DNA of 34,733 nucleotides. Origin: a virus. The first letter of the stretch is position 1. Every line of letters begins with the position of its first letter. Position numbers and translations under genes: made by a program. The notes beneath the pieces are model-generated. The model was not told the origin of the DNA. It saw only the letters and a program-made list of their open reading frames with translations, and ran no database searches. The stretch covers positions 1 through 34,733 of IMG/VR virus record IMGVR_UViG_3300017917_003145. One strand, written 5' to 3'. Positions 3,331 through 34,719 of this stretch are shown here, in pieces.

Positions 3331-3346
3331 GTTGCTTTTTAGCAAC
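3331..3346 (-). terminator. Hairpin after the 121-aa gene (weak terminator candidate)
   Basis: GTTGCT and AGCAAC form a six-base stem around a four-base loop, about 15 bases past the stop codon at 3362. A second small CACC/GGTG hairpin lies just before it in the direction of transcription. Only a short T-run follows (ATAATTTTGG), so termination is uncertain. Confidence 0.35.
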
Positions 3347-3361
3347 ACCGTTTGGTGGTTG

Positions 3362-3727
3362 TTAAAGTTGCAAGTTATCCAAGTATTGCTGCAAGTTATC
3401 AGCATGCAATTTTAGCATGGTAGCTTCCTCGCTGCCCAGCAACAGTATCTCGTCCATTTTTTGTATATAATACGGACAAGTCAACAATCGGCTCATTTGC
3501 AGCAGAGTTCGGTTCCGTAAAGGTTCCGGTAGGTTACATTGGTAGACAGGAATTTTTGTAAATTTTTTAATATACTGAATTCCAGATTTGGATAAACGCA
3601 GGTTTGAAGAGTCGGTGTGATTCCACCACCATATCTTGATCACAGAAGGATATTCAAAAGCGTCCCGTCCCGAGGCTTGTAGAATCCCTTCTGTGTAAGA
3701 TTGTTGATTACGGGTAGATTTGGTCAC
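3362..3727 (-). CDS. Conserved-looking phage hypothetical protein, 121 aa
   Basis: I cannot name a family. The protein appears soluble, with a Trp-rich VIKIWWWNHTD segment near residues 30-40, a basic middle and a helical Leu-rich C-terminus. The start is GTG at 3727. It overlaps the 3' end of the broken gene at 3708-3994, the same tight overlap seen throughout the window, so the two were probably translationally coupled when the upstream gene was intact. Confidence 0.65.
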   Translation of the reverse strand: MTKSTRNQQSYTEGILQASGRDAFEYPSVIKIWWWNHTDSSNLRLSKSGIQYIKKFTKIPVYQCNLPEPLRNRTLLQMSRLLTCPYYIQKMDEILLLGSEEATMLKLHADNLQQYLDNLQL

Positions 3728-3994
3728 CTTGTTTCATCAAGACCACAGTGAATTTGTCAGTCTTAAACAATGTGTTAAGTTTTTTACAAAGATTAATAGC
3801 ATGCCCGCTATTGCTAAAGCTTACCTTTTTGTATTTTGGTCCTGGTTAAGCAACTACATATTTGAGCTTTTTAAATTAATTGGTTTATTATCATAGAAAA
3901 CTGCCCAAATTCCTTCGCTGCTTAGAACTTGATCACTCTTGTAGTTAGACTTATTAACGTGTTCTAACAATATTGTTGGTTTAGGTCTGGACAT
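3708..3994 (-). pseudogene. Small phage gene broken by a frameshift and a stop codon
   Basis: From the ATG at 3994 the frame codes for 46 residues (MSRPKPTILLEHVNKSNYK onward, then EGIWAVFYDNKPINLKSSNM) and stops. The following 47 codons, in another frame, read PGPKYKKVSFSNSGHAINLC onward to GDQIYP, ending at 3708 inside the next gene. Together they form one ordinary small phage protein of about 94 residues. Joining them needs one frame change near 3857 and reading past a TAA just before the Pro-Gly. Promoter-like and ribosome-site-like sequences are still present. It may be a decayed gene or a sequencing or assembly error. Confidence 0.7.
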
Positions 3995-4016
3995 TGCATG
4001 GTTTCCTTGAACTATG

Positions 4017-4024
4017 TATTTATG
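4017..4024 (-). promoter_or_regulatory. T4-late-type promoter-like octamer
   Basis: The minus strand reads CATAAATA, one base from the T4 late consensus TATAAATA, 22 bases ahead of the ATG at 3994 with a GGAA element between. T4-like phages drive late genes from such sites with a gp55-type sigma factor; that factor is not seen in this window. Confidence 0.35.
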
Positions 4025-4045
4025 CCGTAAACTGGGCAGTTTAAG

Positions 4046-4258
4046 TTAAAACCCGCCACCGTCTAAGCTTATTGCGGTTGGCGGTGGAGTGGGGGTCTCT
4101 GCAGACTGTGATTCTGCAATATTAGCAAGTAGATTGAAAATATCGGCATGCAAGTTTCTAGCTTCTTCTGCTGATAGTGCTAGTTGTTTGCTACCTGTTT
4201 GATTCATAATTTTAACTCGTTCGTTAAAATTTTTAATCGCTAAACTTAGTTTTTGCAT
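4046..4258 (-). CDS. Hypothetical protein, 70 aa
   Basis: A small helical protein beginning MQKLSLAIKNFNERVK, with a Pro-rich tail and a Gly-rich C-terminus (DGGGF). It overlaps the upstream gene by 13 bases. A conserved helical segment (residues 25-50, rich in Ala, Glu and Leu) suggests a small structural or adaptor protein. No known domain is recognised. Confidence 0.7.
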   Translation of the reverse strand: MQKLSLAIKNFNERVKIMNQTGSKQLALSAEEARNLHADIFNLLANIAESQSAETPTPPPTAISLDGGGF

Positions 4259-4719
4259 TTCAAATCCTTTAATCTGTTGCGCATTTCTTCTTTTGTTACA
4301 AAAGGCCCAAGGTACTCATATCTATTCACTGTAATGTTTTTTGGACAAAACGTTTCTGTCCATACGGAATTTAATTTAATCAAGTAATAGCCGGCACAAA
4401 ATAAACTTTTACTTTTAAGAGTTTTACTATAGATAGGTAGTTTTCGTTGAACATCCCATACTTGATTGTATGCCCGACCAACAACAGGATACCCATAAAC
4501 TGTTTTATTATTTTCTTTTTTGGGCTTTTCCTGTGAACTAAATTTTATATTGTATTTTTGTTTAAGATTTTTAACACTAGGAAAAAATTCTCGTTGTTCT
4601 TCATGTACATATGCATACCCACCATCGTCACGAGCTTGAATGGTAGCAACTTTATTCCCAGAATCTTCAACGACCCAGAATTTATTTTTAACAACTGGTT
4701 TAGCAATTAGTTCACTCAT
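4246..4719 (-). CDS. Conserved phage hypothetical protein, 157 aa
   Basis: The N-terminus (KFWVVEDSGNKVATIQARDD) looks like a small beta-rich domain. A YGYPVVGRAYNQVWDVQRKLP segment follows, and then a FCAGYYLIKLN and TFCPKNITVNRYEYLGPF region near the end. From memory the pattern resembles a hypothetical family common in aquatic T4-like phages, but I cannot assign a function. It overlaps the upstream gene by eight bases and the downstream gene by 13, within a run of co-directional small genes. Confidence 0.75.
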   Translation of the reverse strand: MSELIAKPVVKNKFWVVEDSGNKVATIQARDDGGYAYVHEEQREFFPSVKNLKQKYNIKFSSQEKPKKENNKTVYGYPVVGRAYNQVWDVQRKLPIYSKTLKSKSLFCAGYYLIKLNSVWTETFCPKNITVNRYEYLGPFVTKEEMRNRLKDLKCKN

Positions 4720-4969
4720 GTTTTTCTTTTAAAACTTTCATGGTAATGATTTTACCAATTTCCTGTCCAAGATCATGACCGTCGGGGATAACATACAGTT
4801 CCGATACTTGTCCCGGATGAGTGGCAATATCCATAATATATCCGCCGTTGGCACCGTGTATACTGATATTGATTTTTTGATTAGGAAATTTTTTATCGTA
4901 CATATATTGTCCAATATCAATGGTGGGAATCTGTCCGACTGTGGCAGCGTTCATGGTATAAGTGCTCAT
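4712..4969 (-). CDS. Hypothetical protein, 85 aa
   Basis: A small soluble protein with alternating hydrophobic residues and Gly turns (ISIHGANGGYIMDIATHPGQ), suggesting a compact beta fold. It overlaps both neighbours by a few bases (ATGA type), consistent with translational coupling. No family is recognised. Confidence 0.7.
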   Translation of the reverse strand: MSTYTMNAATVGQIPTIDIGQYMYDKKFPNQKINISIHGANGGYIMDIATHPGQVSELYVIPDGHDLGQEIGKIITMKVLKEKHE

Positions 4970-5241
4970 TGTTTCATTTGCTCCAGCATGATGGCCTGCG
5001 CTACTTGTTTGGCAAAATCTTCATCCTCGTGAATCATATACAATGTACCTTCGTTACGATCTAACTTATGATTGTAATTACGGCATTCGAGTATATGTCC
5101 GCCCACTGCTTTGTACAAAACAAAATTCAAACCATCTTGGCGCGGTGAAGTTCGATGGTCATCGCTGCTAACAAGCACAGCAGTCTCTTGCATACTGTCG
5201 TCGGTTAACCATTCGCGTATTTTTCTTTTTAGCCATTTCAT
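4966..5241 (-). CDS. Hypothetical protein, 91 aa
   Basis: The start at 5241 (MKWLKRKIREWL) is chosen over a longer upstream frame because it overlaps the preceding stop codon and has a GAGGAG ribosome site. The N-terminal amphipathic basic helix is followed by alpha/beta-like sequence (GLNFVLYKAVGGHILECRN) resembling the style of the 85-aa protein encoded next. The function is unknown. Confidence 0.7.
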   Translation of the reverse strand: MKWLKRKIREWLTDDSMQETAVLVSSDDHRTSPRQDGLNFVLYKAVGGHILECRNYNHKLDRNEGTLYMIHEDEDFAKQVAQAIMLEQMKQ

Positions 5242-5582
5242 TTGTGTTTCTCCTCTTCTTGACACAATGCTTTCATCATTTCAAACTTATCGTTTAATTC
5301 TTTTAAACCGGGGTGCCGAGCCATAAGTTCCGCTAGCTGCTTTTCTTCTTGCATCTTTTTACAGGCCCACTCTATTGCCTGTTTAGCATCGTGACCTAAA
5401 TCTATAGATGCAGTACTGCCTATTATTTGCCAACTTAATCCATCATATACTTCTATTCTTGCCATATTAGGATTATATCTAAGCTGGCCTGCGCTTAGTG
5501 CGCCCGGGCTCATCGACGGTGTATAAGTATTACCACCTTGGATGTTTATATGTGATGAGCCGCTGTATAAGTGTTGAATCAT
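5238..5582 (-). CDS. Conserved phage hypothetical protein, 114 aa
   Basis: It begins MIQHLYSGSSHINIQGG. A segment LRYNPNMARIEVYDGLSWQ resembles short repeats seen in phage virion and tail-fibre-associated proteins. The C-terminal half is helical and charged (AIEWACKKMQEEKQLAELMA). A virion role is possible but unproven. It overlaps both neighbouring genes by four bases. Confidence 0.7.
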   Translation of the reverse strand: MIQHLYSGSSHINIQGGNTYTPSMSPGALSAGQLRYNPNMARIEVYDGLSWQIIGSTASIDLGHDAKQAIEWACKKMQEEKQLAELMARHPGLKELNDKFEMMKALCQEEEKHK

Positions 5583-5953
5583 ATATATTCAGTTAATAAA
5601 ATAGATACTGTAAAGCCTATAAACAAATAGGTCAGAGCATGTACAAATTGATCAATACCGATCCACATCCAGAATTTATTTGAGTCACTATTCATTCTAA
5701 CAGTAATTCTACGATGCGCTAAATCAACAACATAGTGTATTGCGGCATCAATTACAGCAAGCATAACACATGCTTGCAAATTTAAGAAATGCATTAATAT
5801 CACATAGGTCAAAGCACCATGGAGACCGGCATGCTGCAACCCACCTAGTCTACCAAAGTGCCCTTTGTCTCTCAGCATACGATCGCTTTGCCAGCAAAAG
5901 TCTGCTAGAAAGTGTTTAAAGAATAGTAAGGCTAATACAAGCCAAGTGGTCAT
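5579..5953 (-). CDS. DUF3307-like integral membrane protein, 124 aa
   Basis: It has three to four hydrophobic helices, with conserved-type motifs KHFLADFCWQSDRML near residue 13, the HAGLHGALTY histidines near residue 41 and an AIHYVVDLAHRRI helix. The His/Asp pattern in membrane helices matches the DUF3307 family, whose biochemical role is unknown. It probably sits in the host inner membrane. It overlaps its neighbours by four bases on each side. Confidence 0.7.
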   Translation of the reverse strand: MTTWLVLALLFFKHFLADFCWQSDRMLRDKGHFGRLGGLQHAGLHGALTYVILMHFLNLQACVMLAVIDAAIHYVVDLAHRRITVRMNSDSNKFWMWIGIDQFVHALTYLFIGFTVSILLTEYI

Positions 5954-9028: not shown

Positions 9029-9898
9029 TCAAGTTCCCCATTCGTTCTTAAACAATGGTACTTGTAATCTATCACTGTATCGTAATCCGTGTTTCATTGC
9101 AAGTAATGCCACCGTTTTGTTATTCAATGAATATACGCTTTCAACACCGCCCACTGGCATCAGATACACAGCACCTTTAAATCCTGCATTGCGATATTGT
9201 TCTGCAGCTTTTAACGCATCTTTTACATCTTCTTCTGTAGACACAACAAACTTGAGATAAGTGTAACCAACTTCTTCGTATTCGCATACAATAGACGGAC
9301 ATATAGCTTCTTCCCACCGTTCGCCGCTGGCTGGCAATTTTGCACTAACACTAAATGTAAGTGCATCACGGCCACGACGTCCTGTTTTATTGTTTAGTGT
9401 CCAATCTAGCAAATAATGTTTGAACTCTTTGGTTAACTGTTGAGTACCATTGGTTTCAAAAGTAATTTCTTTTAACTTTTGCATACGTGGATGATTCAAC
9501 AAGTCAGGATAACTACGCTGCCATCCTAGTAGTGGCTCTCCACCTGTAATAACAAGATGCTCGTCCTTCCACTTACCATGGGGAAGAATTTCCATAATAC
9601 GTTCTACAATTGCATCTGTAGTTAACATAGGGCTTAGATCTTTAAAGTCTGGGTGCCACGATGCATAACTGTCGCAACCTGTGCTTACAAGCGGAAGCTC
9701 TTCGTATTTTGTGTACGGAGTTCTTTGGTGTTGAACGGCAATGTCCTCTGCTTCTGCGCTTAGTTCTCCGCGCGGCATGCCGAAGCCTGCACATTTAAAG
9801 TTACAACCAAATGTACGCAAGAAAACACTAGGAACACCCATGTAGCGACCTTCGCCTTGGATGCTATAAAATAATTCTGCTACTTTTAATTTACTCAT
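9029..9898 (-). CDS. queE: 7-carboxy-7-deazaguanine synthase QueE (phage type), 289 aa
   Basis: This radical-SAM enzyme converts 6-carboxytetrahydropterin to 7-carboxy-7-deazaguanine. The start FYSIQGEGRYMGVPSVFLR is diagnostic. Two cluster cysteines are in GCNFKCAGFG (C32, C36). The expected third cysteine is missing there and probably comes from TGCDSY (C75) after an insertion of about 40 residues. HLVITGGEPLLGWQ (118-122 is TGGEP) is the SAM-binding glycine motif. At 289 residues it is longer than typical bacterial QueE. It works with FolE and QueD in this window toward the base inserted by DpdA. Confidence 0.92.
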   Translation of the reverse strand: MSKLKVAELFYSIQGEGRYMGVPSVFLRTFGCNFKCAGFGMPRGELSAEAEDIAVQHQRTPYTKYEELPLVSTGCDSYASWHPDFKDLSPMLTTDAIVERIMEILPHGKWKDEHLVITGGEPLLGWQRSYPDLLNHPRMQKLKEITFETNGTQQLTKEFKHYLLDWTLNNKTGRRGRDALTFSVSAKLPASGERWEEAICPSIVCEYEEVGYTYLKFVVSTEEDVKDALKAAEQYRNAGFKGAVYLMPVGGVESVYSLNNKTVALLAMKHGLRYSDRLQVPLFKNEWGT

Positions 9899-10051: not shown

Positions 10052-10392
10052 CAATGGTTACGCTTTCCGTCGAATACACAATTGAATACAAGATTCATTT
10101 CTCCGGTATTAATAACACGATGGAATGCACCATCTGGAATAAGAACAATATCGCCGGGCTTGACTGTAAAAGGAGCGTCTGTTTCGTTGCCCACAATCAT
10201 TTCTCCGTAACCTTGTACAAAGAAATAAACTTCTTCTTGCCCTGCATGTCTGTGGCCTCTTGTGCTTTGTCCACGATATAATTTGGTAGAACTTAGTACA
10301 AGGTTATTTAGAGTTCGATTATCTTTAAGTAGATAAACTTCGTTGTCTTTGACAACTTCGCCACCTACATCATGTACGTTATATTTGATCAT
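10051..10392 (-). CDS. Cupin-domain protein, 113 aa
   Basis: A single small cupin barrel. Motif 1 is GQSTRGHRHAGQEEVYFFVQG (H47, H49, E53/E54, closing Gly), and motif 2 is GDIVLIPDGAFHRVIN with a second-motif His91. The metal-binding residues are all present. Small cupins bind metals and sugars or act as isomerases and dioxygenases, so the substrate cannot be named. It abuts the SbtA-like permease at 10392 and is in the block between queD and queE; a role with the permease or with the deazaguanine path is inference. Confidence 0.85.
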   Translation of the reverse strand: MIKYNVHDVGGEVVKDNEVYLLKDNRTLNNLVLSSTKLYRGQSTRGHRHAGQEEVYFFVQGYGEMIVGNETDAPFTVKPGDIVLIPDGAFHRVINTGEMNLVFNCVFDGKRNH

Positions 10393-11333
10393 TATTGCAC
10401 CATAGTTGCTAAGTGTGTATAGAGTGGAATTCCGACTAAAATATTAAAAGGAAAAGTAATACCTAGACTCAACCCAAAATACACACTTGGATTGGCTTCG
10501 GGTATAGCATGACGCACAACTGCAGGTACTGCAATGTAACTTGCCGATGCAGCAAGAACCATTAACAATATTGTATTACCGTGGCTTACTCCAAACAATG
10601 TACATAGTCCAAGCGCCGCCAAACTGTGTATCAAAGGAAACACCACAGCATAACCTAACAACATTGGACTTTTATCTCGTAAGTCTGGAATACGTTCTGC
10701 TACCTTTAGACCCATATCTAACAGGAAGAATGCCAGCATGCCCTTAAACAAATCACCAGTGAATGGTTTCATTACTGCCATACCTGCATCTCCAGTTACA
10801 AAGCCAATAACCAATGCAGCTAGTAGTAGTAAATGAGCACCGTCAGTAAAGGATTCGTGCAGTATAGATTTTATACTAACCGTAGAGGTAGTCCTATACC
10901 ATGCAGCCAACGCTACTGCCATGATAATTGCCGGTGATTCCATTAAAGCCATTACTGCTGCCATCACGCCACTAAATTCTATACCAGCATTGCCTAAGAA
11001 TTGAGTGGCAGTAACAAAGGTAACCGCACTAACTGAACCATATGTGGCTGCTACTGCGGCACTATCATACCCATTTAAAAATCTTTTTAAAATTAGATAG
11101 CTTATAGCAGGAATAGCCAATGCCAAAAATAATCCTAATGCAATTACTATGGTGATTTCTGAAGTGAATCCGCTTTTGCTAAGGGCTACTCCGCCCTTGA
11201 TACCCAAAGCCATTAAAAGATATAGGCTTAAAAATTTTGATATTTGTTCTGGGATAGCAAGATTAGATTTTACTAACCCAGCAATGATACCAAATACAAA
11301 AAATAATATAGCTGGGTCTAAAAGGATATTCAT
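10392..11333 (-). CDS. SbtA-like sodium-dependent bicarbonate transporter family permease, 313 aa
   Basis: About ten hydrophobic helices. It begins MNILLDPAILFFVFGIIAG, with characteristic ALGIKGGVALSKSG near residue 45, AATYGSVSAVTFVTATQFL near residue 97 and ALMESPAIIMAVALA, plus a second inverted-repeat-like half with SASYIAVPAVVRHAIPEANP. These match the SbtA/DUF897 permease family, known for sodium-dependent bicarbonate uptake in cyanobacteria. The start at 11333 overlaps the queD stop (ATGA). It could import an anion or a precursor for the neighbouring pathway. The role is not shown by the sequence. Confidence 0.82.
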   Translation of the reverse strand: MNILLDPAILFFVFGIIAGLVKSNLAIPEQISKFLSLYLLMALGIKGGVALSKSGFTSEITIVIALGLFLALAIPAISYLILKRFLNGYDSAAVAATYGSVSAVTFVTATQFLGNAGIEFSGVMAAVMALMESPAIIMAVALAAWYRTTSTVSIKSILHESFTDGAHLLLLAALVIGFVTGDAGMAVMKPFTGDLFKGMLAFFLLDMGLKVAERIPDLRDKSPMLLGYAVVFPLIHSLAALGLCTLFGVSHGNTILLMVLAASASYIAVPAVVRHAIPEANPSVYFGLSLGITFPFNILVGIPLYTHLATMVQ

Positions 11334-11833
11334 GCAAAGAGATCCTCGTTCCATTCGCGATGGCCTTCACGGAAAGCCATGTTAGCTTGTGTTTCGCGAA
11401 CTTCTACTCTATAGCACCAAAGACGATTGTGCTCGCCGAGTCCCCACATGTCTGGAATGTATACACCATTTACGTATTTGTACAGTTGATCTGCTAGGCC
11501 TTCGCAACCTAGTTTGGGCAGCACGACAATTTTAGCCATTTTCTTTTCTTGTAACAATTTAAATGTTTCAAGTTCTGGATCATCTTGTGCTACAATTAGT
11601 GTATGGTCGAATTGATCTTCTAGAATCTTTTTCAATTCTTTCAAGCCACCATAATCAGCAGCCCAATTACGTACATCCAAATCGTCAGTACCAAAATAAA
11701 ACTTCATGCTAAACGAATAGCCATGAATTAGATTGCAATGGCTGTCGGCACGCCACTGACGATAGGCGCAAGGAAATGCGTCATGATATTCTTTTGTACT
11801 TGTGTATTTGTAAACTCTTGTTGGATAAGACAT
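11330..11833 (-). CDS. queD: 6-carboxy-5,6,7,8-tetrahydropterin synthase QueD (divergent phage type), 167 aa
   Basis: It would convert 7,8-dihydroneopterin triphosphate from FolE to 6-carboxytetrahydropterin, the QueE substrate. Motifs in order are FPCAYRQWRADSHCNLIHGY (C22, Y24, H32, C33, H37, Y39), an LDVRNWAADYGGLKELK strand-turn-helix, FDHTLIV (D76, H77), GCEGLADQL (E111) and VEVRET (E147). The T-fold pattern is clear, but two positions that are normally zinc-binding His (AHRL and HGH) are Tyr. An AGGAGA ribosome site precedes the start. QueD and the permease overlap by four bases. Confidence 0.85.
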   Translation of the reverse strand: MSYPTRVYKYTSTKEYHDAFPCAYRQWRADSHCNLIHGYSFSMKFYFGTDDLDVRNWAADYGGLKELKKILEDQFDHTLIVAQDDPELETFKLLQEKKMAKIVVLPKLGCEGLADQLYKYVNGVYIPDMWGLGEHNRLWCYRVEVRETQANMAFREGHREWNEDLFA

Positions 11834-19287: not shown

Positions 19288-20835
19288 TTACCCCTCCAAA
19301 TGAGATTGCATAATATTTTCGGCTTCGTCTTCTGACATTTCTTCTGCGGAGTCTTCGACTTCTTCCACGGTTTCAAAAAGAGCATTAAACATTGTATTAC
19401 TGTTTTTGGTTTTTTTACCCTTGAATCCTCGCGTACCTACAATGTCCATCCAGTATCGATCGTAATGTTCAATAATTGCTTCGGCACTTGCACGATCAGG
19501 TGCAGAAAAAATAGCTTCAACAATGTCTCTAAACTGAGCGTGGTCACCATTGACGTTCCATAACATAGCAGGTCGTTCTCCTGCATCGTATGCCCTGTTT
19601 GCTCTCTGCACTGATTCAATATGTGTCCAAACATTGTGCCCCATCATTAACGCATAACTAAAACTATCCCAACTAGTTTTGCCCTCTTTACCGTTTTTGT
19701 TTAGATCACCGGGTTTGTATATGCAAACATCTTTGATGGCCAAATGTTTACTAATTGGACTGTCCTCGAATACTTCAAATATACCATCTTGTAATACAGC
19801 ATCTCGGAACGATCGAGTATCTGTTGCATATTTTTTGTCGTCAGCACTGGGCTTCATTTTATATGACCATTTGCTATCGTGCTCAAGATCAATCCAATGA
19901 TACATTTGTCCGTTGGCTGTCGCTAAAAAAGGACTCGCACAATCAAAACTAATAGTAAATGCAGGGTTAACATACTTACGGACAGCTCGTTGAATGTCAG
20001 TTAACAATAACGCCCATTCTAGTTTACTTGTACCCAAAAAGTGCATCCAGTCGTGAACACCTTCCTGTAACAAGTTGTCATAACGTAGTGCAACTAGACG
20101 TTTGAGTACAAGATGAATATCGCACATGTTCTGTCCGCCCATTGCCCATCCATCAAAGTGTGTGTCTGGGTATTTGTTAGGATCACAAAACTCTTTCATT
20201 TCTTGATACCATGATTCTGCACTGGTATGATTGTCCCCTTGCAGAACATTCAAGAACTTGGCACCACCGTTGTTTTTGCCTTTACGATGTTGCATAAAGT
20301 ACAGGTTATTGAATTTTGTGGCATCTACAGCTTCTTCTAGTGTAGTAATGCCACAGGCCTTGCTAGCTTTCTTGTCGTGTATGACCCAGGTAGGGATATC
20401 AAGAATCATACCATAATCGGCAATACCATCTAACCATTTTAACACAGCTGAACGCTTCTTTTCAGCTTTTGGGCATCCACTATTAGCTTTCCAGTCGCCC
20501 TCCCAAAGACCTTTGGCAATTTGGAATCCACCCGAGTCACCCAACATAAAAGTACCGGCTTCGCGTTTACGAACCATGTCTTCGCTAGGATCGTCCTTAG
20601 TTAAATCTAGATTTGCGTGTCCGCCCGAGTAGAGACTCCATCTGTACGGGAAGAGTCCTTTTTGGCTATTGAGCCAATTGAATTGCTCCATGTCCTGTAA
20701 TGCCTGTGGCATACGAGCAGGATCAACATAGTCATTGTTAACACGTTGTTTTCCTATAAAAGTTGCGTAGAAACCAGATATAGCAGGCAAGAACACTGCA
20801 TAATCTAGTTGTTTTGCTGTTAAGTTATCCTGCAT
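19288..20835 (-). CDS. dpdA: DpdA-type DNA 7-deazaguanine transglycosylase (TGT superfamily), 515 aa
   Basis: It would swap guanine in DNA for a 7-deazaguanine made by FolE-QueD-QueE. TGT landmarks are GTFMLGDSGGFQIAKG (D100, the base-recognition Asp), KFLNVLQGDNH (near residue 205), HFLGTSKLEWALLL (near residue 265) and TISFDCASPF (D298, the presumed nucleophile), plus HFDGWAMGGQN. At 515 residues it is longer than bacterial TGT (about 375); the C-terminal part is acidic (VEEVEDSAEEMSEDEAENI). It overlaps the sulfotransferase-like gene by 11 bases. Confidence 0.88.
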   Translation of the reverse strand: MQDNLTAKQLDYAVFLPAISGFYATFIGKQRVNNDYVDPARMPQALQDMEQFNWLNSQKGLFPYRWSLYSGGHANLDLTKDDPSEDMVRKREAGTFMLGDSGGFQIAKGLWEGDWKANSGCPKAEKKRSAVLKWLDGIADYGMILDIPTWVIHDKKASKACGITTLEEAVDATKFNNLYFMQHRKGKNNGGAKFLNVLQGDNHTSAESWYQEMKEFCDPNKYPDTHFDGWAMGGQNMCDIHLVLKRLVALRYDNLLQEGVHDWMHFLGTSKLEWALLLTDIQRAVRKYVNPAFTISFDCASPFLATANGQMYHWIDLEHDSKWSYKMKPSADDKKYATDTRSFRDAVLQDGIFEVFEDSPISKHLAIKDVCIYKPGDLNKNGKEGKTSWDSFSYALMMGHNVWTHIESVQRANRAYDAGERPAMLWNVNGDHAQFRDIVEAIFSAPDRASAEAIIEHYDRYWMDIVGTRGFKGKKTKNSNTMFNALFETVEEVEDSAEEMSEDEAENIMQSHLEG

Positions 20836-23177: not shown

Positions 23178-23185
23178 TATTTATT
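23178..23185 (-). promoter_or_regulatory. T4-late-type promoter-like octamer before the methyltransferase
   Basis: The minus strand reads AATAAATA, one base off the T4 late consensus, 24 bases before the ATG at 23153. It overlaps the DNA polymerase stop codon. The spacing matches the octamer at 4017-4024. Confidence 0.35.
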
Positions 23186-25841
23186 CGAAGGTAAACAAGC
23201 TATCAAATGTTGTTTTAATATCTGTATGACTAGGAATATCCCACTCAAGAACGCCTAATAAGTTTTCTACCTTTTGATCAACAATAGTAGATTCCATTAG
23301 TCCATCGTCAAAGGGCAAATCTTTGAACCACTGTGGGATGTGTGTTTCGTCTGTAGGATAACCGACACTAGTGTAGCCTAGCGGATTATCTTTTAATTTA
23401 CACACAATAGTTTTCATGCCATCAACAATAGCCATACTGTAATTGTCACCGTGCATTCTGCGCAAGTTATTCCAATTCATAGCAGCACGAACGTGTCCGG
23501 GCATGTTCGCCTTGCCTAGTCGTTCTTCTTCGCGAGTATAATTAGTTAAATTATTAACACGTTTAGGTGTTCCTTTTTCCCATGCTGGTCGATCTTGGAA
23601 CGCAATCTTGAATTCTCTAACCTTATCATATACATGTTCCTTAGTACAGCCGGTTAGAACATCAGTTAGTAAATCACTTAAGAAGTCTTGTACAACCTTG
23701 GGTGTATCGGACCGCTTGAGATCAAGACCCATAGCCTTTACTTTGCCAGGCTTACCATAGGTGTCCAATCTGTTGCCTTCGAGATCATAAATTAGAACAG
23801 CATAGCGTTTCTTCTTTATAAATAGGCCCTTGCTAGCAACAAGCTCTCGTCCGCCTTTAATGAGCTCACCCATCGATCGCGGTACATGACAGGCTCGTTC
23901 CATAAATGCCGGAAAGCTTGCGTTAACTTGTTCAGCGATCGAGTCGTATAGTTGCACACAGATTTCTTTGTTCCATTCCATTCGTCCTGATTCAACTTCG
24001 TCTTTAATTGCCGGCCAAGCTGTAAAATAGCATGAATCAGTGTCGCCATAGATGATACTTTTACCAACATGGTCGTACTCTCCGAAGATACACTCATTGA
24101 TATACGCATCCATGTGTTTTGCGATGATTCGTCCAGTGAGAGTAGTACTTTGACCAATCCTTTTGTCGAAAAATCTACAACCTGGATTGAGAATTGCTCC
24201 GTAGAGACTGTTAAGATTAATCTTTTTGACAAGTTGTCGTTTGTCCCAGAATGCCTTATCTTCATCGGTGGTGGCTTCCTTCTTTTTCTTTTGCAGTTCT
24301 TTTCGTTCTGCATACCAGCGTTCTAGCAAGCCCGGAACAACTGCTTTTTGCTCATAGCTAAAGATAGTTCCGTTAGCACTCAACATCCAAGGTTGATTAC
24401 TGTCAAAGATCATGCGCCAAATATCGGCAGCACTCATTACATCCTCGCCGCCGGCTTCCCAGTCAACGGTAATTTCTGTGCCAGGTTCGGCATTCATTAC
24501 AGCTTGATATTCGAGACTACCAAACATGTTTTCCCAAGCATCTGCGAAGGAACTTCCGCTGGCCATTTTTTCTTGAATATACCTATCTGTCATTATCGGC
24601 CGGAGTTGACCAACAATGGACTCTTGTGCCATGTTAAGAGCGCGGATCGCTGAGGGGTATAGACTGTTGATGTCGATCGCCCCGATCCAGTTGTGCATTC
24701 CTTTTTTCGGGAAAGCAACATAGGCACCTGCTGCTTGTGTGTCTCCTTGTTCATCTCTTCCTTTCCTATTAGGTACTACCATACCTCGTTGATGTGCTTC
24801 GTTGATAATTGCCTGCTCAGTTACTGCTACAGCACCCATTGTGGTTGCCAATAAAACTGTGTTATCGTGTGCAAGTTCGTTAGCTAGATCTAGGAACCGC
24901 AGTTTCTTATCTAGTTTGGCAACAAGCATAGTATCTTGCCTGTTATAGTCAATGAACTTGGGAAAGTCTTTGTTGTATAGCTGATCTAGTGTGCCTTCGT
25001 ATTGTGTCTTGCGCTCATCTAGTTCATATTCACCAATGGCATCCAATGAATAACTGTGTCGTTCTTCATATGTATATTTGCGATAAAGTTGCATATAGTC
25101 CATATGCACTCGGCCAATCAAATCAAATGTGAGATTCTCGGCACCAAAGCGTTCGAAGGTGCGTTGTTTGGGCAGTTGCCCCCACAGGCAGAAACGTCTA
25201 GTATCGTCTTTGCTCAACACTCTAGTGACACGCATGGTCATGTACGGAATATCAAAGCCTTCTGAGTTCCATCCACTTAGTATATCTGCATCGTCGATAA
25301 TGTCAAGGAATGTGTTAAGCATGTCCTCTTCGCGTTCAAAGAGGAAACAGTTGTCATACTTGTTACAAATTTCTTGTGCAGTTTCCCAACTGTACGATTT
25401 AGGAGGAACTACAAGTGTAACCAGTTTGTTCATCCAGTCTAGGTAAACTGAAATAGCGGTAATAGCATTGAACGGATCTTCGGGTCGGCTAAAACCTCTT
25501 ACTGGATCAAAGTCGACCTCAATGTCAAAAAACGCAGTTTGTAGCTTGGGAGAATTTGCCCCAAGGTAGTGTTCTTCAAGGCAACGGAATACAGGATTGA
25601 TATCCGACTCCCAAAGACGCTTGTTAGAATTAATACGTAGTTCTTTTTGGAACTCCTTATACGAGCGACTGGAAAACCTACTAACGGGAGTACCGTAGAC
25701 AGTACGGAACTTACCACGCGGGTCATCGTAGTAAAAGATATACGATGCTGGGTATTCTCTATATACCCTTTGTCCGTCGACCCGTTCAACAACATGGATG
25801 CGATCCTGATTACGATCATAAAGTGCGTCAACATAGCTCAT
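23181..25841 (-). CDS. Family B DNA polymerase, T4 gp43 type, 886 aa
   Basis: This is the phage replicative DNA polymerase. Exonuclease motifs are FFDIEVDFD (near residue 105), GWNSEGFDIPYM (near residue 192) and DYNRQDTMLVAKLD (near residue 300). Polymerase motifs are IDINSLYPSAIRALN (motif A, near residue 393), KKINLNSLYGAI (motif B, near residue 550) and IIYGDTDSCYF (motif C, YGDTDS, near residue 600). The 886-residue length is close to the T4 enzyme (898). The C-terminus (FDSLFTFE) resembles a clamp-binding peptide. All key acids are present. Confidence 0.97.
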   Translation of the reverse strand: MSYVDALYDRNQDRIHVVERVDGQRVYREYPASYIFYYDDPRGKFRTVYGTPVSRFSSRSYKEFQKELRINSNKRLWESDINPVFRCLEEHYLGANSPKLQTAFFDIEVDFDPVRGFSRPEDPFNAITAISVYLDWMNKLVTLVVPPKSYSWETAQEICNKYDNCFLFEREEDMLNTFLDIIDDADILSGWNSEGFDIPYMTMRVTRVLSKDDTRRFCLWGQLPKQRTFERFGAENLTFDLIGRVHMDYMQLYRKYTYEERHSYSLDAIGEYELDERKTQYEGTLDQLYNKDFPKFIDYNRQDTMLVAKLDKKLRFLDLANELAHDNTVLLATTMGAVAVTEQAIINEAHQRGMVVPNRKGRDEQGDTQAAGAYVAFPKKGMHNWIGAIDINSLYPSAIRALNMAQESIVGQLRPIMTDRYIQEKMASGSSFADAWENMFGSLEYQAVMNAEPGTEITVDWEAGGEDVMSAADIWRMIFDSNQPWMLSANGTIFSYEQKAVVPGLLERWYAERKELQKKKKEATTDEDKAFWDKRQLVKKINLNSLYGAILNPGCRFFDKRIGQSTTLTGRIIAKHMDAYINECIFGEYDHVGKSIIYGDTDSCYFTAWPAIKDEVESGRMEWNKEICVQLYDSIAEQVNASFPAFMERACHVPRSMGELIKGGRELVASKGLFIKKKRYAVLIYDLEGNRLDTYGKPGKVKAMGLDLKRSDTPKVVQDFLSDLLTDVLTGCTKEHVYDKVREFKIAFQDRPAWEKGTPKRVNNLTNYTREEERLGKANMPGHVRAAMNWNNLRRMHGDNYSMAIVDGMKTIVCKLKDNPLGYTSVGYPTDETHIPQWFKDLPFDDGLMESTIVDQKVENLLGVLEWDIPSHTDIKTTFDSLFTFE

Positions 25842-29691: not shown

Positions 29692-30330
29692 TTATTCCCA
29701 TGCTACCATTTTAAAACGCTCTTGTACTACACCAAAATATTTACATTTGTATTCACTTTGTGCAAAAAAGTCTAAATGATGCCACTCTTCTTTTTTATTT
29801 AACAGTTGTTGTGCTGCATCATTCCAATCGATGTTGGCCAATATAGGTTCCACGTGTGCTTTTATTTCCTGTAACTCGTAGTAATCGAAGCCGTCGTATT
29901 CCCAGTGCAATATTTCAAAACAGTTACCATAGCAATCTGCATAGTCCATGCTAAAGTCCAATCCCCATTTAGGACGTAATCTAATCAATTGCCAGATTCT
30001 GGGAAAATACTTTGTCCACATTTTGAGTTGACTCAAGGCTTCGCCTTTGAATCCTTTGCGTTCAAATAATAAACTGTGATTGAGAATAGCACCCTCTACT
30101 TTATCAGTCTGATCAAACCATGGTTGTTTGACTGCTGTTCTATGGCTACGATGTAGTTCAGTTTTTGTTAGGTTCACATCAGCAAACAATTTTTCTAGTT
30201 CAGTTAAATCGTAACCGTTTTGATCAAATAATTCTAGATGACGTATCTTTGGGGCAAAATGACTTTCAATGGGAATAGACCAATAGCCATTAGAATCCCA
30301 TTGATTATTGGTAAGAATAAAATCCTGCAT
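29692..30330 (-). CDS. Conserved phage hypothetical protein, 212 aa
   Basis: The start at 30330 (MQDFILTNNQWDSNGYW) overlaps the upstream stop (TAATG). It is Trp/Tyr-rich, with HSLLFERKGFKGEALSQLK, MWTKYFPRIWQLIRLRPKWG and GLDFSMDYADCYGNCFEILHW regions. No membrane segment. I do not recognise the family. Gene order suggests late or structural functions. Confidence 0.65.
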   Translation of the reverse strand: MQDFILTNNQWDSNGYWSIPIESHFAPKIRHLELFDQNGYDLTELEKLFADVNLTKTELHRSHRTAVKQPWFDQTDKVEGAILNHSLLFERKGFKGEALSQLKMWTKYFPRIWQLIRLRPKWGLDFSMDYADCYGNCFEILHWEYDGFDYYELQEIKAHVEPILANIDWNDAAQQLLNKKEEWHHLDFFAQSEYKCKYFGVVQERFKMVAWE

Positions 30331-30731
30331 TAGTCTTTGATAATAGGACCGCCGGTGATCCAAAGTTCGCAACTTCTAGATCCAGCACACTTAAAGTGTA
30401 GAAAATTACAATAACCTAAGTCGGCTGCTTCTCTGGTTCGTTCAGCATCAAAGGCTTCCTTGCCCATACCACCTTCAATGCATTTGTACATGCTGTCAGA
30501 TATATTGAAGGCACCGCAATTGCTGCAAGTCATAGTACGAGCAGTTTTTTCGTCAATGTGCCACCGTTTTGCTGCCTCTTTCCAATAGTTACCAGGTTTA
30601 TCGGGATTGGCAGGACCGTAGTGGTGGTTATCAATCCCGTTCTGACGATTCTTAACATTAAGTTCTAAATCGTGTGTAGCTCTAGGACAATTTTTTCCTG
30701 CTGCTTCAACTAAGTTAATTAGATTTCTCAT
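30330..30731 (-). CDS. Conserved phage protein with Cys motif, 133 aa
   Basis: NCPRATHDLELNVKNRQNGI and HHYGPANPDKPGNYWKEAAK in the N-terminal half precede MTCSNCGAFNISDSMYKC, a CxxC knuckle, and a later YCNFLHFKCAGSRSCELW, together suggesting one zinc or iron site. From memory this arrangement is common in aquatic phage virion-region proteins. It overlaps the DUF5872-like gene upstream by 17 bases. Confidence 0.7.
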   Translation of the reverse strand: MRNLINLVEAAGKNCPRATHDLELNVKNRQNGIDNHHYGPANPDKPGNYWKEAAKRWHIDEKTARTMTCSNCGAFNISDSMYKCIEGGMGKEAFDAERTREAADLGYCNFLHFKCAGSRSCELWITGGPIIKD

Positions 30732-31446
30732 TGTCTTGATTTTTAAATATACGACGAATTATGCTTTGATTTTGTCTATTTGGATCTATGTAATTTTTTA
30801 CTTCTTGGTCTGCTAGAGAGCGAGGATCTTGTAATAATTTTCCTGCTGTAACTGCTGCTCCTATTAAATCTAGGCCTTTACGTAATGCACTTGGTTCCTG
30901 TTGATCTTGTGGTTGTAATTCGGGGATACCTTGTTCTTTCATGTTGCGAGTCTTGGTAGCAACATTCTTGGCTGCGCCTCTGCGTTCAGGATTGGGATCT
31001 TCCCTACGCTTTTTAGCTGCACTACTGGCACGACCTTTTTTACCTAGCGCATGTGCCTTGGCAGCTGGTAAGCATTTGGGTTTACCTTCGCCACTACTAC
31101 GGCCACCGCACTCGCCACGAATCTTACCATCCGGACCAAAGCGTACCCATTTTTCTCGAAACCACTTGCGTAGATCTTCTTGTAGTTCAGACTCGGACAA
31201 CACAGATAAATCATATTCGTATTGATCGATACTTTCCGACTGTCTTGTTTGTTTAGGGCCTTTGCGCTCTTTCCATTTTTTATCAGTAGAACAATAATAC
31301 CGGCCATAACCTTCGGCTATGTCTTGTTCTTCGTTGGTTTTCTTTTTGTTTTTTACACAATTAGGATACCGTTTACCAAACATGGTTTTCATACCTTCCT
31401 TGTGGTAACCTTTCCAACAAGCTTCTAGAAGTTCGCGATATTTCAT
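30715..31446 (-). CDS. DUF5872-like basic phage protein, 243 aa
   Basis: WKGYHKEGMKTMFGKRYPNC near the N-terminus is a short element that I recall from many phage virion-region proteins. The middle LRKWFREKWVRFGPDGKIRG, then CGGRSSGEGKPKCLPAAKAH and SSAAKKRREDPNPERRGAAK, is the basic Gly/Cys module of DUF5872. The site DIAEG (residues 42-46) resembles a prohead-protease site. The protein could be packaged with DNA or bind it in the capsid. It overlaps the 923-residue protein gene by four bases. Confidence 0.75.
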   Translation of the reverse strand: MKYRELLEACWKGYHKEGMKTMFGKRYPNCVKNKKKTNEEQDIAEGYGRYYCSTDKKWKERKGPKQTRQSESIDQYEYDLSVLSESELQEDLRKWFREKWVRFGPDGKIRGECGGRSSGEGKPKCLPAAKAHALGKKGRASSAAKKRREDPNPERRGAAKNVATKTRNMKEQGIPELQPQDQQEPSALRKGLDLIGAAVTAGKLLQDPRSLADQEVKNYIDPNRQNQSIIRRIFKNQDNEKSN

Positions 31447-34214
31447 TTTTTACTCTTGTTACCCCAATTCGCCGCACCTACTTTACGGCAGCGTACTAAC
31501 GCACCTGATGCATAAGCACTAGGCCAAACCTTGTAACGACTTTTTACTTTGTGATAGCAAGCATCTTGTTTTTCAGCTAGCATGCGATCTGAGTACGCAG
31601 GTCCGCCACATTCAGGACACAAGGTCGCTGATTCAGTCACTATTTCGTATCCGGCTCTCTGCATTTCGTCAAGGTACTTTTCGACATCCTCGTTAGTAAC
31701 TTTGTATTTCTTCTTCACTTCAGCGGCTTTTTTATATCGCTCTTCGTCGGGCAGATCGTATGTGGCTTTTAACTCTTTGTAATAATCAGGATCGGGCAGA
31801 CCTGACTTCTTGCGTAATTCTTGATGTCGCTTGTGTAGTCGATCTTGCACTGATCCTTCTTCTACATTCTGCTGAGATGATTGACTATTTAATGCATCAA
31901 TTACTTCTTTAATAAATTGTGGCCCATGAAACAAACCACGATATTGCCAGTAAAATCCCATGGGAATATATAATGTGTTATTTTTTAATTCAACTTTACC
32001 ACTCCACGGAAATGCAACAGATATATTGCTTCCATCAGATGATTTAAATAAATTTTCTAATTTTTTGTCAACATAGACATCGTTACGATCTTGATAAAAA
32101 GCAGACCAACTTGCTAAATCTTGAAAATTTCTTTTCACATATTGCAGTAATTTTTTGGAACCGGACACATAATCGGCAGCAGGTAGCACATTACGACCTT
32201 CTTCCATTTCACCTCGACGCTTACCAAAGGTGTTGTGAACAAGTTTATCTAACTTGGCGTGAAATTGAGTTTCTTTATCTTTACTAATACCAGTATCGCC
32301 TTCTGTCACGCCTCGCTTCATTTTGCTTAGTGCGGTGCTGGCCATATCATCGCTGTTTATATAGTTGCCGACAAGTTTGACATATTGATCAAATGTCATT
32401 CTTTGTACTTTCATGTTGGGATACATTTTGAGATCTTCTGCGTTCCACAGTGGTAGATCACCGCCGAACTCATTTAGGTAAGGCATAGGTAGCGCCGCCC
32501 ATAGATCATCAAATTCGTGTTCATCAACATCTGTAATTTTGATTGCTACTGATTCACCTTCCCGGGGGTCAGGGTGTACGGCGTAGATATTGCCTAAATC
32601 GTCGCCACCATTGAATTCGTCAGGACCAAATTCGTTCAAGCTGCCTTCTGCCACACCCCGTTCTCTACGCTTGAGTTCTGCCTGCACACGCTTGAGTTTT
32701 GCTCCTGAGCCAAATGCAGGAACGCCACCACCTGATACTTTCTTTACATAGGCCTGTAAGCGTTCAGTTGAATACTGACTTAAATCTTCACCTTCTTTAA
32801 TTTTTATTTTGTTTAGAATCTTCTCTGCATCTTTCGCAGCGTCTTTGGCTTTTTGCGGTTTCGCTGTGTGTTGTGTGCCACGCTCACCGGTAGTGTCTCT
32901 GCTGCCATATGTTCGATGACTTACATGACCATCACGACCTGGTTGTGGTGCTGATTTATCCATTTCTTTAACGACCCGAGCAACACCAACCATGTGGTCC
33001 TTGGGCTCTGATGGCTGCTTATCTCGTTCCTGTTCTTTACGCTTCCGAGCAGCAAGATCTGCCACACTGCCTTTCTTGGGCTTTTTGGCACCGTAACTGA
33101 AAGGACCTGCTTCCGCTACACCTTGTTCTTTTACTGGCCACGGCTTCAATGGACGACCTTTAGCATTGAACCATCCAGTCTGTGTTTCGTTATCCCATTT
33201 GGCCCATACTGCACTGTTACCAACCACACGCTCACCTTTACTATCACTGTAAAAGTCTGACATGTCATCAAATACTCTTGCATTGATGCTATCAACCGCA
33301 CGATCCCAATCTTTTTTATTATTTGTTTTAACATTATCAGTAATCATGTCGGCATCACGATGAACTGCACCTCTCATGTGATCCACATCGGGGAATCCAC
33401 CATGAAACTTTAAGCCTTCCTCCACATCACTAGTCTTTAACTTATCACGCAACTGTTTAGCCATCTTCATGTAATGGTCACGCTTGATATCGTTCTTAGT
33501 TGCTTTTGCTCTTTTTTCGTAATCGGCGATCATCGTCCATAAACGATTTTCTTTACGCTCGTCTGCGCCTTCTTCTATACCTTTTTGTGGCTTTACGTAC
33601 TTCATGACGAACCGGCGATATCTTTCGGCGTCACCTTTTCCAAACATTGCAATAGGATCGGCTCCCTTTTCATGTGCAATATCACGCCAGTAACTATCAG
33701 ACTCTTGATACGAATTAAATCCCTGTTGCCAACGATATTCGTGTTCTTCTTCTAAACTTTGCCCATATTCAGCTCGTACATCGTCCGAACTGTTAAATCC
33801 GTGTTGTCTAACGATGTACTCAATGTCGTCAAATGTTAATCCATAACGATCCATTAGCGTATCAAATTGGTCGTACACAATAGCGTTAACTACAGCATCC
33901 CACGGTACTTGCTTAGATACATTTTCAGGAATTTGTTTATCGTAAGCACGTTGTGCTCTAGCAAAACTATCGTCTGGAAATTGATGTGGCTTTGTAGGAG
34001 CCGCCAACGGTTCGCTCTGAATGCCACCTATTCTTTTTACATTAACAACTTTTTTGTTTCTTCGAGCACCAACTTTATCCCAATCAATATCATCGCCGTT
34101 GAAGTTTAATGTTTCGCTAGTTCCATCGTCGAAGAATACTTTGAAAGTAACATACTCTCCGTCCCTTAAACTTTCGTTTAATTGTTTTTTGTTAAAAAGA
34201 TCGTTAATAAACAT
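31443..34214 (-). CDS. Large modular protein with repeated protease-like sites (putative prohead polyprotein), 923 aa
   Basis: Unrelated-looking modules are separated by short [IVM]-x-E-[G/A/S] sequences. They are IEEG (213-216), VEEG (264-267), VAEA (366-369), IKEG (472-475), VAEG (521-524), VTEG (636-639), MEEG (670-673), VEEG (784-787) and VTES (859-862). Three share an RGV/QGV lead-in (366, 521, 636) with different codons. T4 gp21 prohead protease cuts [LI]-x-E before G, A or S, so this looks like a cleavable core or internal protein. The end holds CPECGG (866-871) and a basic SRYKVWPSAYASGALVRCRK module. Function not proven. Confidence 0.8.
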   Translation of the reverse strand: MFINDLFNKKQLNESLRDGEYVTFKVFFDDGTSETLNFNGDDIDWDKVGARRNKKVVNVKRIGGIQSEPLAAPTKPHQFPDDSFARAQRAYDKQIPENVSKQVPWDAVVNAIVYDQFDTLMDRYGLTFDDIEYIVRQHGFNSSDDVRAEYGQSLEEEHEYRWQQGFNSYQESDSYWRDIAHEKGADPIAMFGKGDAERYRRFVMKYVKPQKGIEEGADERKENRLWTMIADYEKRAKATKNDIKRDHYMKMAKQLRDKLKTSDVEEGLKFHGGFPDVDHMRGAVHRDADMITDNVKTNNKKDWDRAVDSINARVFDDMSDFYSDSKGERVVGNSAVWAKWDNETQTGWFNAKGRPLKPWPVKEQGVAEAGPFSYGAKKPKKGSVADLAARKRKEQERDKQPSEPKDHMVGVARVVKEMDKSAPQPGRDGHVSHRTYGSRDTTGERGTQHTAKPQKAKDAAKDAEKILNKIKIKEGEDLSQYSTERLQAYVKKVSGGGVPAFGSGAKLKRVQAELKRRERGVAEGSLNEFGPDEFNGGDDLGNIYAVHPDPREGESVAIKITDVDEHEFDDLWAALPMPYLNEFGGDLPLWNAEDLKMYPNMKVQRMTFDQYVKLVGNYINSDDMASTALSKMKRGVTEGDTGISKDKETQFHAKLDKLVHNTFGKRRGEMEEGRNVLPAADYVSGSKKLLQYVKRNFQDLASWSAFYQDRNDVYVDKKLENLFKSSDGSNISVAFPWSGKVELKNNTLYIPMGFYWQYRGLFHGPQFIKEVIDALNSQSSQQNVEEGSVQDRLHKRHQELRKKSGLPDPDYYKELKATYDLPDEERYKKAAEVKKKYKVTNEDVEKYLDEMQRAGYEIVTESATLCPECGGPAYSDRMLAEKQDACYHKVKSRYKVWPSAYASGALVRCRKVGAANWGNKSKK

Positions 34215-34215
34215 T

Positions 34216-34719
34216 TTAAATTGCCTGTTGTCTTAGTGCTGCTATTTGTTTTGAAAGATTTTCTATTTGTCTTTGCACACCAATTTTTTGCGCTGACATC
34301 TGTTGCAAGCTCATGGCTTTTTCTACTGGATTCGCGCCCTGTGGAAATGCTTTGTTTAGATCACTTAGCTGGGCTCTGGCGCCTTGCATTTCAGCATTCA
34401 AGCCCTTGATCTGATCTTGAATTTGGCTTTTGCCTGTCGCCACCTGCTGTCGTTGTGCTGCTATTTCAACAGGGTCTGCATCATCGTTTCCGGGACCTAC
34501 TGCCGTGCCAGGCGCACCATATTCGGCAAATTGCTGACGTAGACTTTCTTCCAAATCTTCTTCAACGCTTTCCTCTGCACTACCCCCTACCATACGATCG
34601 CGAGATTTAGTTGCACTATCTGTGCCCTTCCAGTAGCCGGGCCATTTTGGTCCTGTTGGCTTTTGCTCCGCAGAACTCATGTTATCCAGTGCTTCTAGCA
34701 ATTTTTTAATATCGCTCAT
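34216..34719 (-). CDS. Scaffold/prohead-core-like protein, 167 aa
   Basis: The N-terminus (MSDIKKLLEALDNMSSAEQK, then PTGPKWPGYWKGTDSATKSR) resembles modules seen in related phage prohead-region proteins. A long coiled coil covers the C-terminal half (QIQDQIKGLNAEMQGARAQL, LSKQIAALRQQAI). DLEESL (55-60) could be a protease site. It is immediately upstream of the 923-residue modular protein and shares its style, so an assembly or scaffold role is inferred. The start at 34719 has no strong ribosome site in the visible bases. Confidence 0.7.
   Translation of the reverse strand: MSDIKKLLEALDNMSSAEQKPTGPKWPGYWKGTDSATKSRDRMVGGSAEESVEEDLEESLRQQFAEYGAPGTAVGPGNDDADPVEIAAQRQQVATGKSQIQDQIKGLNAEMQGARAQLSDLNKAFPQGANPVEKAMSLQQMSAQKIGVQRQIENLSKQIAALRQQAI

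Follow-up and report, generated by a model that had tools for sequence, protein, structure and literature searches.

The closest described systems are the internal head proteins of phage T4. According to passages of two published accounts, IPI–III and Alt are targeted to the prohead by a capsid-targeting sequence (CTS), processed by the gp21 protease and ejected; their short N-terminal propeptides end in a hydrophobic-x-E site, and their cargo varies between phages (PMC9026906, PMC5694885). The propeptide of IPIII has 10 residues, and the same passages describe its role and processing (PMC9026906, PMC5694885). Cleavage by gp21 is reported to follow L/I-x-E (PMC9026906). The T4 scaffold proteins gp22, gp67 and gp68 have several gp21 sites per chain. 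In phiKZ and SPN3US, head proteins with propeptides cut after x-x-E by a gp21-related protease are ejected, as described in part of one account (PMC5694885), and the motif in phiKZ is given as S/A/G-x-E in an excerpt of another (PMC13282480). The inner-body and ejection proteins of these two phages have long propeptides, and the passages concerned describe no cassette chain for them. A further comparison is provided by the polyvalent proteins (Iyer et al. 2017), which are multidomain, mosaic and presumed to be co-transferred with the DNA, according to the sections consulted (PMC5512222).

The window analysed here is a whole stretch of 34,733 nucleotides of viral DNA. It carries on the minus strand the gene P0001, with an ATG at 34214, 923 codons and a span of 31443–34214 (stop codon at 31443–31445), which encodes a modular, putative polyprotein. 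As in IPI–III and Alt, there is a short N-terminal, apparently capsid-targeting propeptide ending in hydrophobic-x-E, a gp21-type protease in the lineage, and a cargo that varies between phages. The T4 proteins have a single cargo and one or two cuts, whereas the chains of this lineage have up to about 15 modules and, unlike the T4 proteins, joints that are conserved in their DNA. P0001 shares with gp22, gp67 and gp68 the presence of several gp21-type sites in one chain. Those proteins are scaffold, however, whereas the P0001 lineage has a separate scaffold gene and pieces that are varied domains. In our view P0001, from a T4-like jumbo phage, is probably a cassette chain that is addressed by a CTS and separated by a protease. 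No description of a cassette polyprotein with protease-site joints was found in the open-access literature searched, and a literature search for the linker peptide returned only unrelated papers, mainly on alpha-synuclein.

P0001 contains nine [IVM]-x-E-[GAS] sites, compared to 1.70 ± 1.28 in composition shuffles, and none of 5000 shuffles reaches nine. Exactly this number had been counted in an earlier reading of the letters (to be referred to as the sequence-only reading), and the cut positions, after residues 215, 266, 368, 474, 523, 638, 672, 786 and 861, reproduce the piece lengths that it listed. The more specific GV[AT]E[GA] is found three times (0.01 by shuffles), and control motifs with D or K replacing E are at or below their expected counts. 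A tenth, N-terminal site that the sequence-only reading did not list, LNE↓S (the arrow indicating the predicted cut), is located after residue 14. The broader [LIVM]xE[GAS] is present 10 times, with 2.4 expected, as would be the case for a substrate of gp21 (family S77). Among the minus-strand ORFs of at least 110 aa in the window, P0001 has the highest z score for site excess (5.2). The site excess and the gp21-type protease of the lineage support the proposal, made earlier, that P0001 is a prohead-protease substrate chain.

All pieces of P0001 are on the minus strand. Residues 1–14 (34173–34214), with the sequence MFINDLFNKKQLNE, would form a CTS-like propeptide that ends in a site. The first piece (residues 15–215, 33570–34172, site IEE↓G) may have two domains in the structural model, a β domain (residues 20–61) and a helical domain (residues 83–205). 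The second (residues 216–266, 33417–33569, site VEE↓G) is predicted to be helical, with pLDDT values above 90. The third (residues 267–368, 33111–33416) has the site QGVAE↓A, encoded by CAAGGTGTAGCGGAAGCA. The fourth (residues 369–474, 32793–33110) is the AGPFSYGAKKP module, found at 31 IMG/VR loci and preceded by VAE↓ or QGVAE↓ in the window as well as in L007, L010 and L013. The fifth (residues 475–523, 32646–32792) has the site GVAE↓G, encoded by GGTGTGGCAGAAGGC, and the sixth (residues 524–638, 32301–32645) starts with SLNEF, a start resembled by sequences after VAE↓G in several relatives. Next are the seventh piece (residues 639–672, 32199–32300, sites GVTE↓G and MEE↓G) and the eighth (residues 673–786, 31857–32198, site VEE↓G). 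The ninth (residues 787–861, 31632–31856) is the helical GSVQDRLHKRHQELRKK module, found at 54 IMG/VR loci, and the tenth (residues 862–923, 31446–31631), in which an additional cut (LAE↓K, after residue 881) is possible, ends in the basic two-Cys DACYHKVKSRYKVWPSAYASG module. The AlphaFold2 model of the entire chain has a mean pLDDT of 60.7, which is low confidence, with confident segments alternating with weak ones. Eight of the nine internal cuts are located in segments with predicted pLDDT below 50, which make up 40% of the residues.

No Pfam or NCBIfam domain in P0001 exceeds the cut-off, and its modules have no match to a known enzyme or fold. A fold search with the model gave nothing in the PDB at E ≤0.001; its one viral match is long but poorly superposed. 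A PDB sequence search found nothing convincing. Residues 812–923 match phrog_727 (E 1.2e-21) and residues 882–922 match phrog_38880 (5.2e-14), so that modules are shared with the modular cyanophage proteins of phrog_727/38880/3477. The phrog_727-type proteins of Kyanoviridae have in common with the lineage some hydrophobic-x-E↓ sites as well as the DACYHKVKSRY, CWKGYEKKGMKTMFGKRYPNC and DUF6321/DUF5872-like modules, but they are at another genome position and have very few GVAE linkers, with 8 sites in 157 proteins (loci with the C-terminal module). In comparison, the chains of relatives have Pfam matches to DUF6321, DUF5872, GNAT acetyltransferase, HicA, RMF, LysM, GH19, ParB_N, cytidine deaminase, NT5C and SutA-RBD, mostly with one or a few members per domain; DUF192 is found in a cyanophage chain. 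As in polyvalent proteins, ParB-like domains and, in one relative's chain, a weak LPD5 match are also present, whereas P0001 itself has none of the hallmark domains shared among polyvalent proteins. The sections consulted on those proteins describe neither an S77-site linker nor a DNA-level joint (PMC5512222). Cytidylyltransferase is present in cyanophage virions (PMC3037559, PMC9602691), and cytidylyltransferase-like domains are also observed among the chains of the lineage. The functions of all the modules are putative.

The neighbouring genes have sites of the same type, as the sequence-only reading had stated for those at 30715 and 34216. P0002 (243 aa, 30715–31446, minus strand) has the N-terminus MKYRELLE↓A, a CWKGYHKEGMKTMFGKRYPNC module and a DUF5872-like region, matches phrog_727 (7.1e-17), and contains three sites compared to 0.66 expected (z 3.0). 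P0003 (167 aa, 34216–34719, minus strand) has the N-terminus MSDIKKLLE↓A and two sites compared to 0.71 expected. P0014 (133 aa, 30330–30731, minus strand) has the N-terminus MRNLINLVE↓A, and its sequence forms part of a longer chain in L059. With P0001, four neighbouring genes in the window have hydrophobic-x-E N-termini. A joint in P0002 reads IAE↓GYGRYYC in the window, and in L014 further modules are inserted ahead of VTE↓GYGRYYC. The relatives of P0003 have extra sequence between conserved ends, a methyltransferase-like stretch in the case of G004, a related contig of 374 kb.

The DNA polymerase of the window (23181–25841) matches hundreds of IMG/VR contigs, the best with 93% identity, and is distant from those of isolates (51% for Sinorhizobium phage Phosso and 47% for Agrobacterium phage Atu_ph07). 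The relatives of the window phage, which is itself uncultured, make up a lineage of T4-like jumbo phages. In Phosso and Atu_ph07, the isolates closest by polymerase, the 43-kb stretches inspected contain no matching chain or linker. A scan with the whole of P0001 matched no viral contig because its modules are too divergent, and queries with the polymerase and with single modules did work. Orthologues of P0001 occupy the matching place, ahead of the P0002 orthologue on its upstream side, in L007, L008/L023, L010, L012, L013 and G004/L021. They range from 359 to 874 aa (808 aa in G004) and have common modules in differing number and order. For example, the GSVQDRLHKRHQELRKK module (residues 787–861) follows NVEE↓G in the window, IDE↓G in L008 and VVE↓G in L012. 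In L010, the propeptide MFVNDLFENKKITE↓ is followed directly by this module (GSAQDRL). The comparison of module order that the sequence-only reading had called for therefore shows shuffling, with homology breaking at the sites, and the pieces are unrelated in sequence, as it had described.

The positions of the breaks were analysed in 173 proteins of the lineage, counting edges within 5 residues of [LIVMF]xE↓[GASNDQ]. Homology edges are located near such sites 2.4–2.6 times more often than random positions, and control motifs with D, K or Q/R/T in place of E give 0.6 to 1.2, i.e. no enrichment. A motif-free count finds E enriched 3.5-fold at the residue immediately preceding right edges and V enriched 2.0-fold two residues earlier. 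This test and the test of N-termini described below took in mutually related sequences, and their P values are therefore not literal. At the nucleotide level, among relatives with at least 88% identity, a site is located no more than 15 nt from 62% of the left and 78% of the right breakpoints, compared to 13–14% in the null. It is conceivable that each linker was simply inherited with its module, and that the homology edges mark fast-evolving linkers rather than exchange, as local alignments tend to end in poorly conserved linkers. We consider such passive descent unlikely. In L273 and L305, flanks with 98.7% and 98.2% identity surround different middle cassettes. Moreover, linkers within one protein share codons at rates of 0.84/0.60/0.78, compared to 0.34/0.29/0.31 expected, even though the modules are mostly unlike.

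The GVAE linker is conserved in its DNA (CAAGGTGTGGCGGAAGG), with rare codons fixed. A sample of 178 GVxE linkers was taken from lineage proteins picked by module or synteny, independent of linker DNA. In these, Gly is GGT in 88% (background 46%), Val is GTG in 67% (background 20%) and Ala is GCG in 84% (background 8%). The signal drops sharply beyond about 20 nt, and the consensus, AGCAAGGTGTGGCGGAAGGC, encodes the cut site QGVAE↓G. Two codons upstream of the linker, K, E and Q all favour NAG compared to background; the DNA is thus maintained despite changes of the residue. Mismatches average 1.62 per GVAE site, whereas 4.23 are expected from synonymous choice (z −24). This effect weakens in variant sites, and neither the D or K controls nor the scaffold sites of G004 show it. 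Allowing up to 3 mismatches, 451 of 455 linker sites, in 195 proteins, are in one reading frame. An exact 17-mer of the linker is found in at least 120 viral contigs, at no fewer than 163 sites, all in open frames of at least 60 codons; among the 163 sites listed, 105 share their frame with at least one other such site. A 17-mer recoded synonymously with commoner codons is found in 26 places, nearly all in single-site genes that are mostly unrelated. A 19-mer of the linker is found in 7 places in bacterial genomes, none of them in a multi-site chain.

In the window itself the consensus is weak, with 3 to 11 mismatches of 18, although its sites still have 56 mismatches in total compared to 65.2 ± 3.0 by synonymous choice (P 0.0025). 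The codon sets of the three GV[AT]E[GA] sites are as the sequence-only reading gave them. It took their differences as a sign of selection on the peptide and not of recent duplication, and here the result is the reverse: the codons of the 178 linkers from relatives are strongly non-random (GCG 84% against 8%), and the linker is therefore inherited or copied as DNA. As the window sites still weakly display this conservation, their codon differences look like later divergence, and the three copies look like diverged versions of a shared linker DNA.

The linker DNA could in principle be conserved for translation, for example for pausing, and not for recombination, as the consensus contains Shine-Dalgarno-like hexamers (AAGGTG, GGAAGG) and rare codons (GCG 8%, GTG 20%). 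On the other hand, common codons (GGT, CAA) are fixed as well, K, E and Q at position −2 all favour NAG, and the nucleotide breakpoints are at the linker. Translation as the reason for conservation thus appears distinctly improbable, and a translational role may exist on top of a role as joint. More tentatively, with chances that we put somewhat below even, the 20-bp linker would be a dedicated recombination joint, an exchange site that also encodes a protease site, comparable to exon shuffling for injected effectors. Otherwise it would be plain microhomology whose copies stay alike through constant exchange.

The N-termini of the chains suggest a link to the prohead. A hydrophobic-x-E site is located at residues 6–20 in 109 of 141 linker-bearing chains, compared to 647 of 1927 other ORFs. 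In G004 alone no genome-wide enrichment of N-terminal sites is visible; it emerges only from the comparison of chains with other ORFs. The chains typically start with MRAQEFITE↓G, MKTTDFITE↓N or MKINEIISE↓Q, which we take to resemble the IPIII propeptide of T4. With LNE↓S at residue 14, P0001 has the short putative propeptide of a T4-type internal (CTS) protein.

The sequence-only reading had proposed a search for a gp21-type protease, which is positive among relatives. The 34.7-kb window yielded no gene for a protease, capsid or scaffold protein, and the control of the protease search was silent as well. Of 31 records examined, from relatives or linker-bearing contigs, 12 have an S77 protease (2 of 15 and 10 of 16); as all 31 are fragments, its absence from the others says little. 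In G004, the protease (E 6.5e-26, phrog_207, head maturation protease) adjoins a scaffold-like gene with 16 sites compared to 2.6 expected, the strongest excess among the 360 ORFs of that contig. The major capsid protein of G004 has the N-terminus MTQALLE↓SRWGETKEALLE↓GLNGSKRTTMGVILE↓NTRKMLAE↓NASGG, and the corresponding propeptide sites in the lineage are LLE↓S or LLE↓G, LLE↓G or LME↓G, ILE↓N, and LAE↓N or LKE↓N. In L299 the genes for portal, protease, scaffold and capsid protein are followed by a GVAEG chain in one cluster, which is partly present in L283 and L318. Overall, the sequence-only reading is partly supported.

These sites bear on whether the chain is cut at all. It could be injected as an uncut multidomain protein with the linkers as flexible tethers. 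Polyvalent proteins of similar design do exist, some of which are transferred uncut according to the sections consulted (PMC5512222), and the sites are in predicted disorder, where any tether would be. This appears quite improbable for P0001, however, as the linker keeps hydrophobic-x-E, the gp21 signature (PMC9026906), unlike a generic Gly/Ser tether, and homology edges show no enrichment of D or K variants. In addition, the chains begin with a T4-like CTS bearing the same site, and this motif recurs in the scaffold and capsid protein of the lineage. If it is cut, P0001 could instead be a core or scaffold-type chain like gp22, gp67 and gp68, chopped for removal and without a payload role. The most site-dense genes of the lineage are scaffold genes, and T4 core proteins are cut to fragments that mostly exit the head (PMC9026906). 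Nonetheless, the chains of relatives have GNAT, GH19, ParB_N, cytidine deaminase, cytidylyltransferase, HicA, RMF and LysM domains, and such enzyme- or effector-like domains fit cargo better than scaffold. A dedicated scaffold gene is separately present and module turnover is rapid, and we regard a scaffold role as very unlikely.

For the preferred reading of P0001 as a cassette chain, we infer the following sequence of events. The first 14 residues, acting as a T4 capsid-targeting sequence, would bring P0001 into the prohead core, where the S77 protease would cut after [hydrophobic]-x-E at about ten sites, mostly in flexible linkers. The small modules thus freed would stay in the head alongside the DNA, for delivery into the host, where they may have host-directed functions. 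The cassettes would be interchangeable, with modules gained and lost by recombination within the conserved linker DNA, and the DNA joint itself may promote this exchange. A link to virions is provided by cyanophages. The C-terminal DACYHKVKSRYKVWPSAYASG module is found in 365–366 phage records, nearly all of them cyanophages, and its proteins are in the gp16–gp17 region in those inspected; the first module of P0002 is found in 32 phage records. Both modules are present in SSCSM1_29 of Synechococcus phage S-SCSM1, which has the GenBank label virion protein. For this phage, 45 proteins were identified by mass spectrometry of purified virions (PMC9602691). The text of that paper does not name ORF29, and the virion evidence for SSCSM1_29 therefore rests on the GenBank label, which is taken as derived from the mass spectrometry.

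If the cassette reading is correct, many uncharacterised phage effectors could be searched for at once with the linker, as DNA or as peptide, given the presence of one exact 17-mer in at least 120 viral contigs, and the cut sites would give exact predicted ends of the mature modules for expression and structural work. The origin of phage mosaicism inside genes would become testable, at a defined sequence. The phage could alter its injected cocktail by cassette swaps while keeping packaging and processing, because the joint carries the processing signal. Moreover, if the joint is a dedicated one, any captured open reading frame would automatically be addressed, cut out and delivered.

The third module (YLYHATSASGLKGMLSSG) of the polyprotein chain in contig L273, encoded within positions 3346-5859 on the minus strand, had no match in an NCBIfam search and by eye looks like an ADP-ribosyltransferase-type fold. 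If it is of this type, the module would be a parallel to T4 Alt, which is directed to the capsid by a capsid-targeting sequence (CTS), processed by gp21 and ejected. In G004, a 374-kb contig from a relative of the window phage, genes with CTS-like N-termini are clustered at 102-111 kb. By eye, their products include deaminase-like, GH19-like, metalloprotease-like, methyltransferase-bearing and nucleotidyltransferase-like proteins, and they are likely more capsid cargo.

In three contigs, the capsid gene is separated from the GVAEG-bearing chain by a gene (L283, 3241-3984; L299, 7870-8589; L318, 1959-2678) that on inspection looks like a GIY-YIG-type homing endonuclease. A Ferritin/Dps-like gene (PF00210; 28502-28936, minus strand) lies close to the chain genes in the window, and G004 has a gene resembling it immediately after its own chain gene.

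The window also encodes a QueE-like radical SAM protein (9029-9898, minus strand). The product of 19288-20835, without a family match, looks by eye like a DpdA/TGT-type protein, and the two may be parts of a 7-deazaguanine DNA modification set. An SbtA Na+-dependent bicarbonate transporter is encoded at 10392-11354 on the minus strand (PF05982, E = 1.7e-110). A protein-level search for it among 50,697 phage records gave no matches, and the gene is possibly a so far unreported auxiliary metabolic gene.
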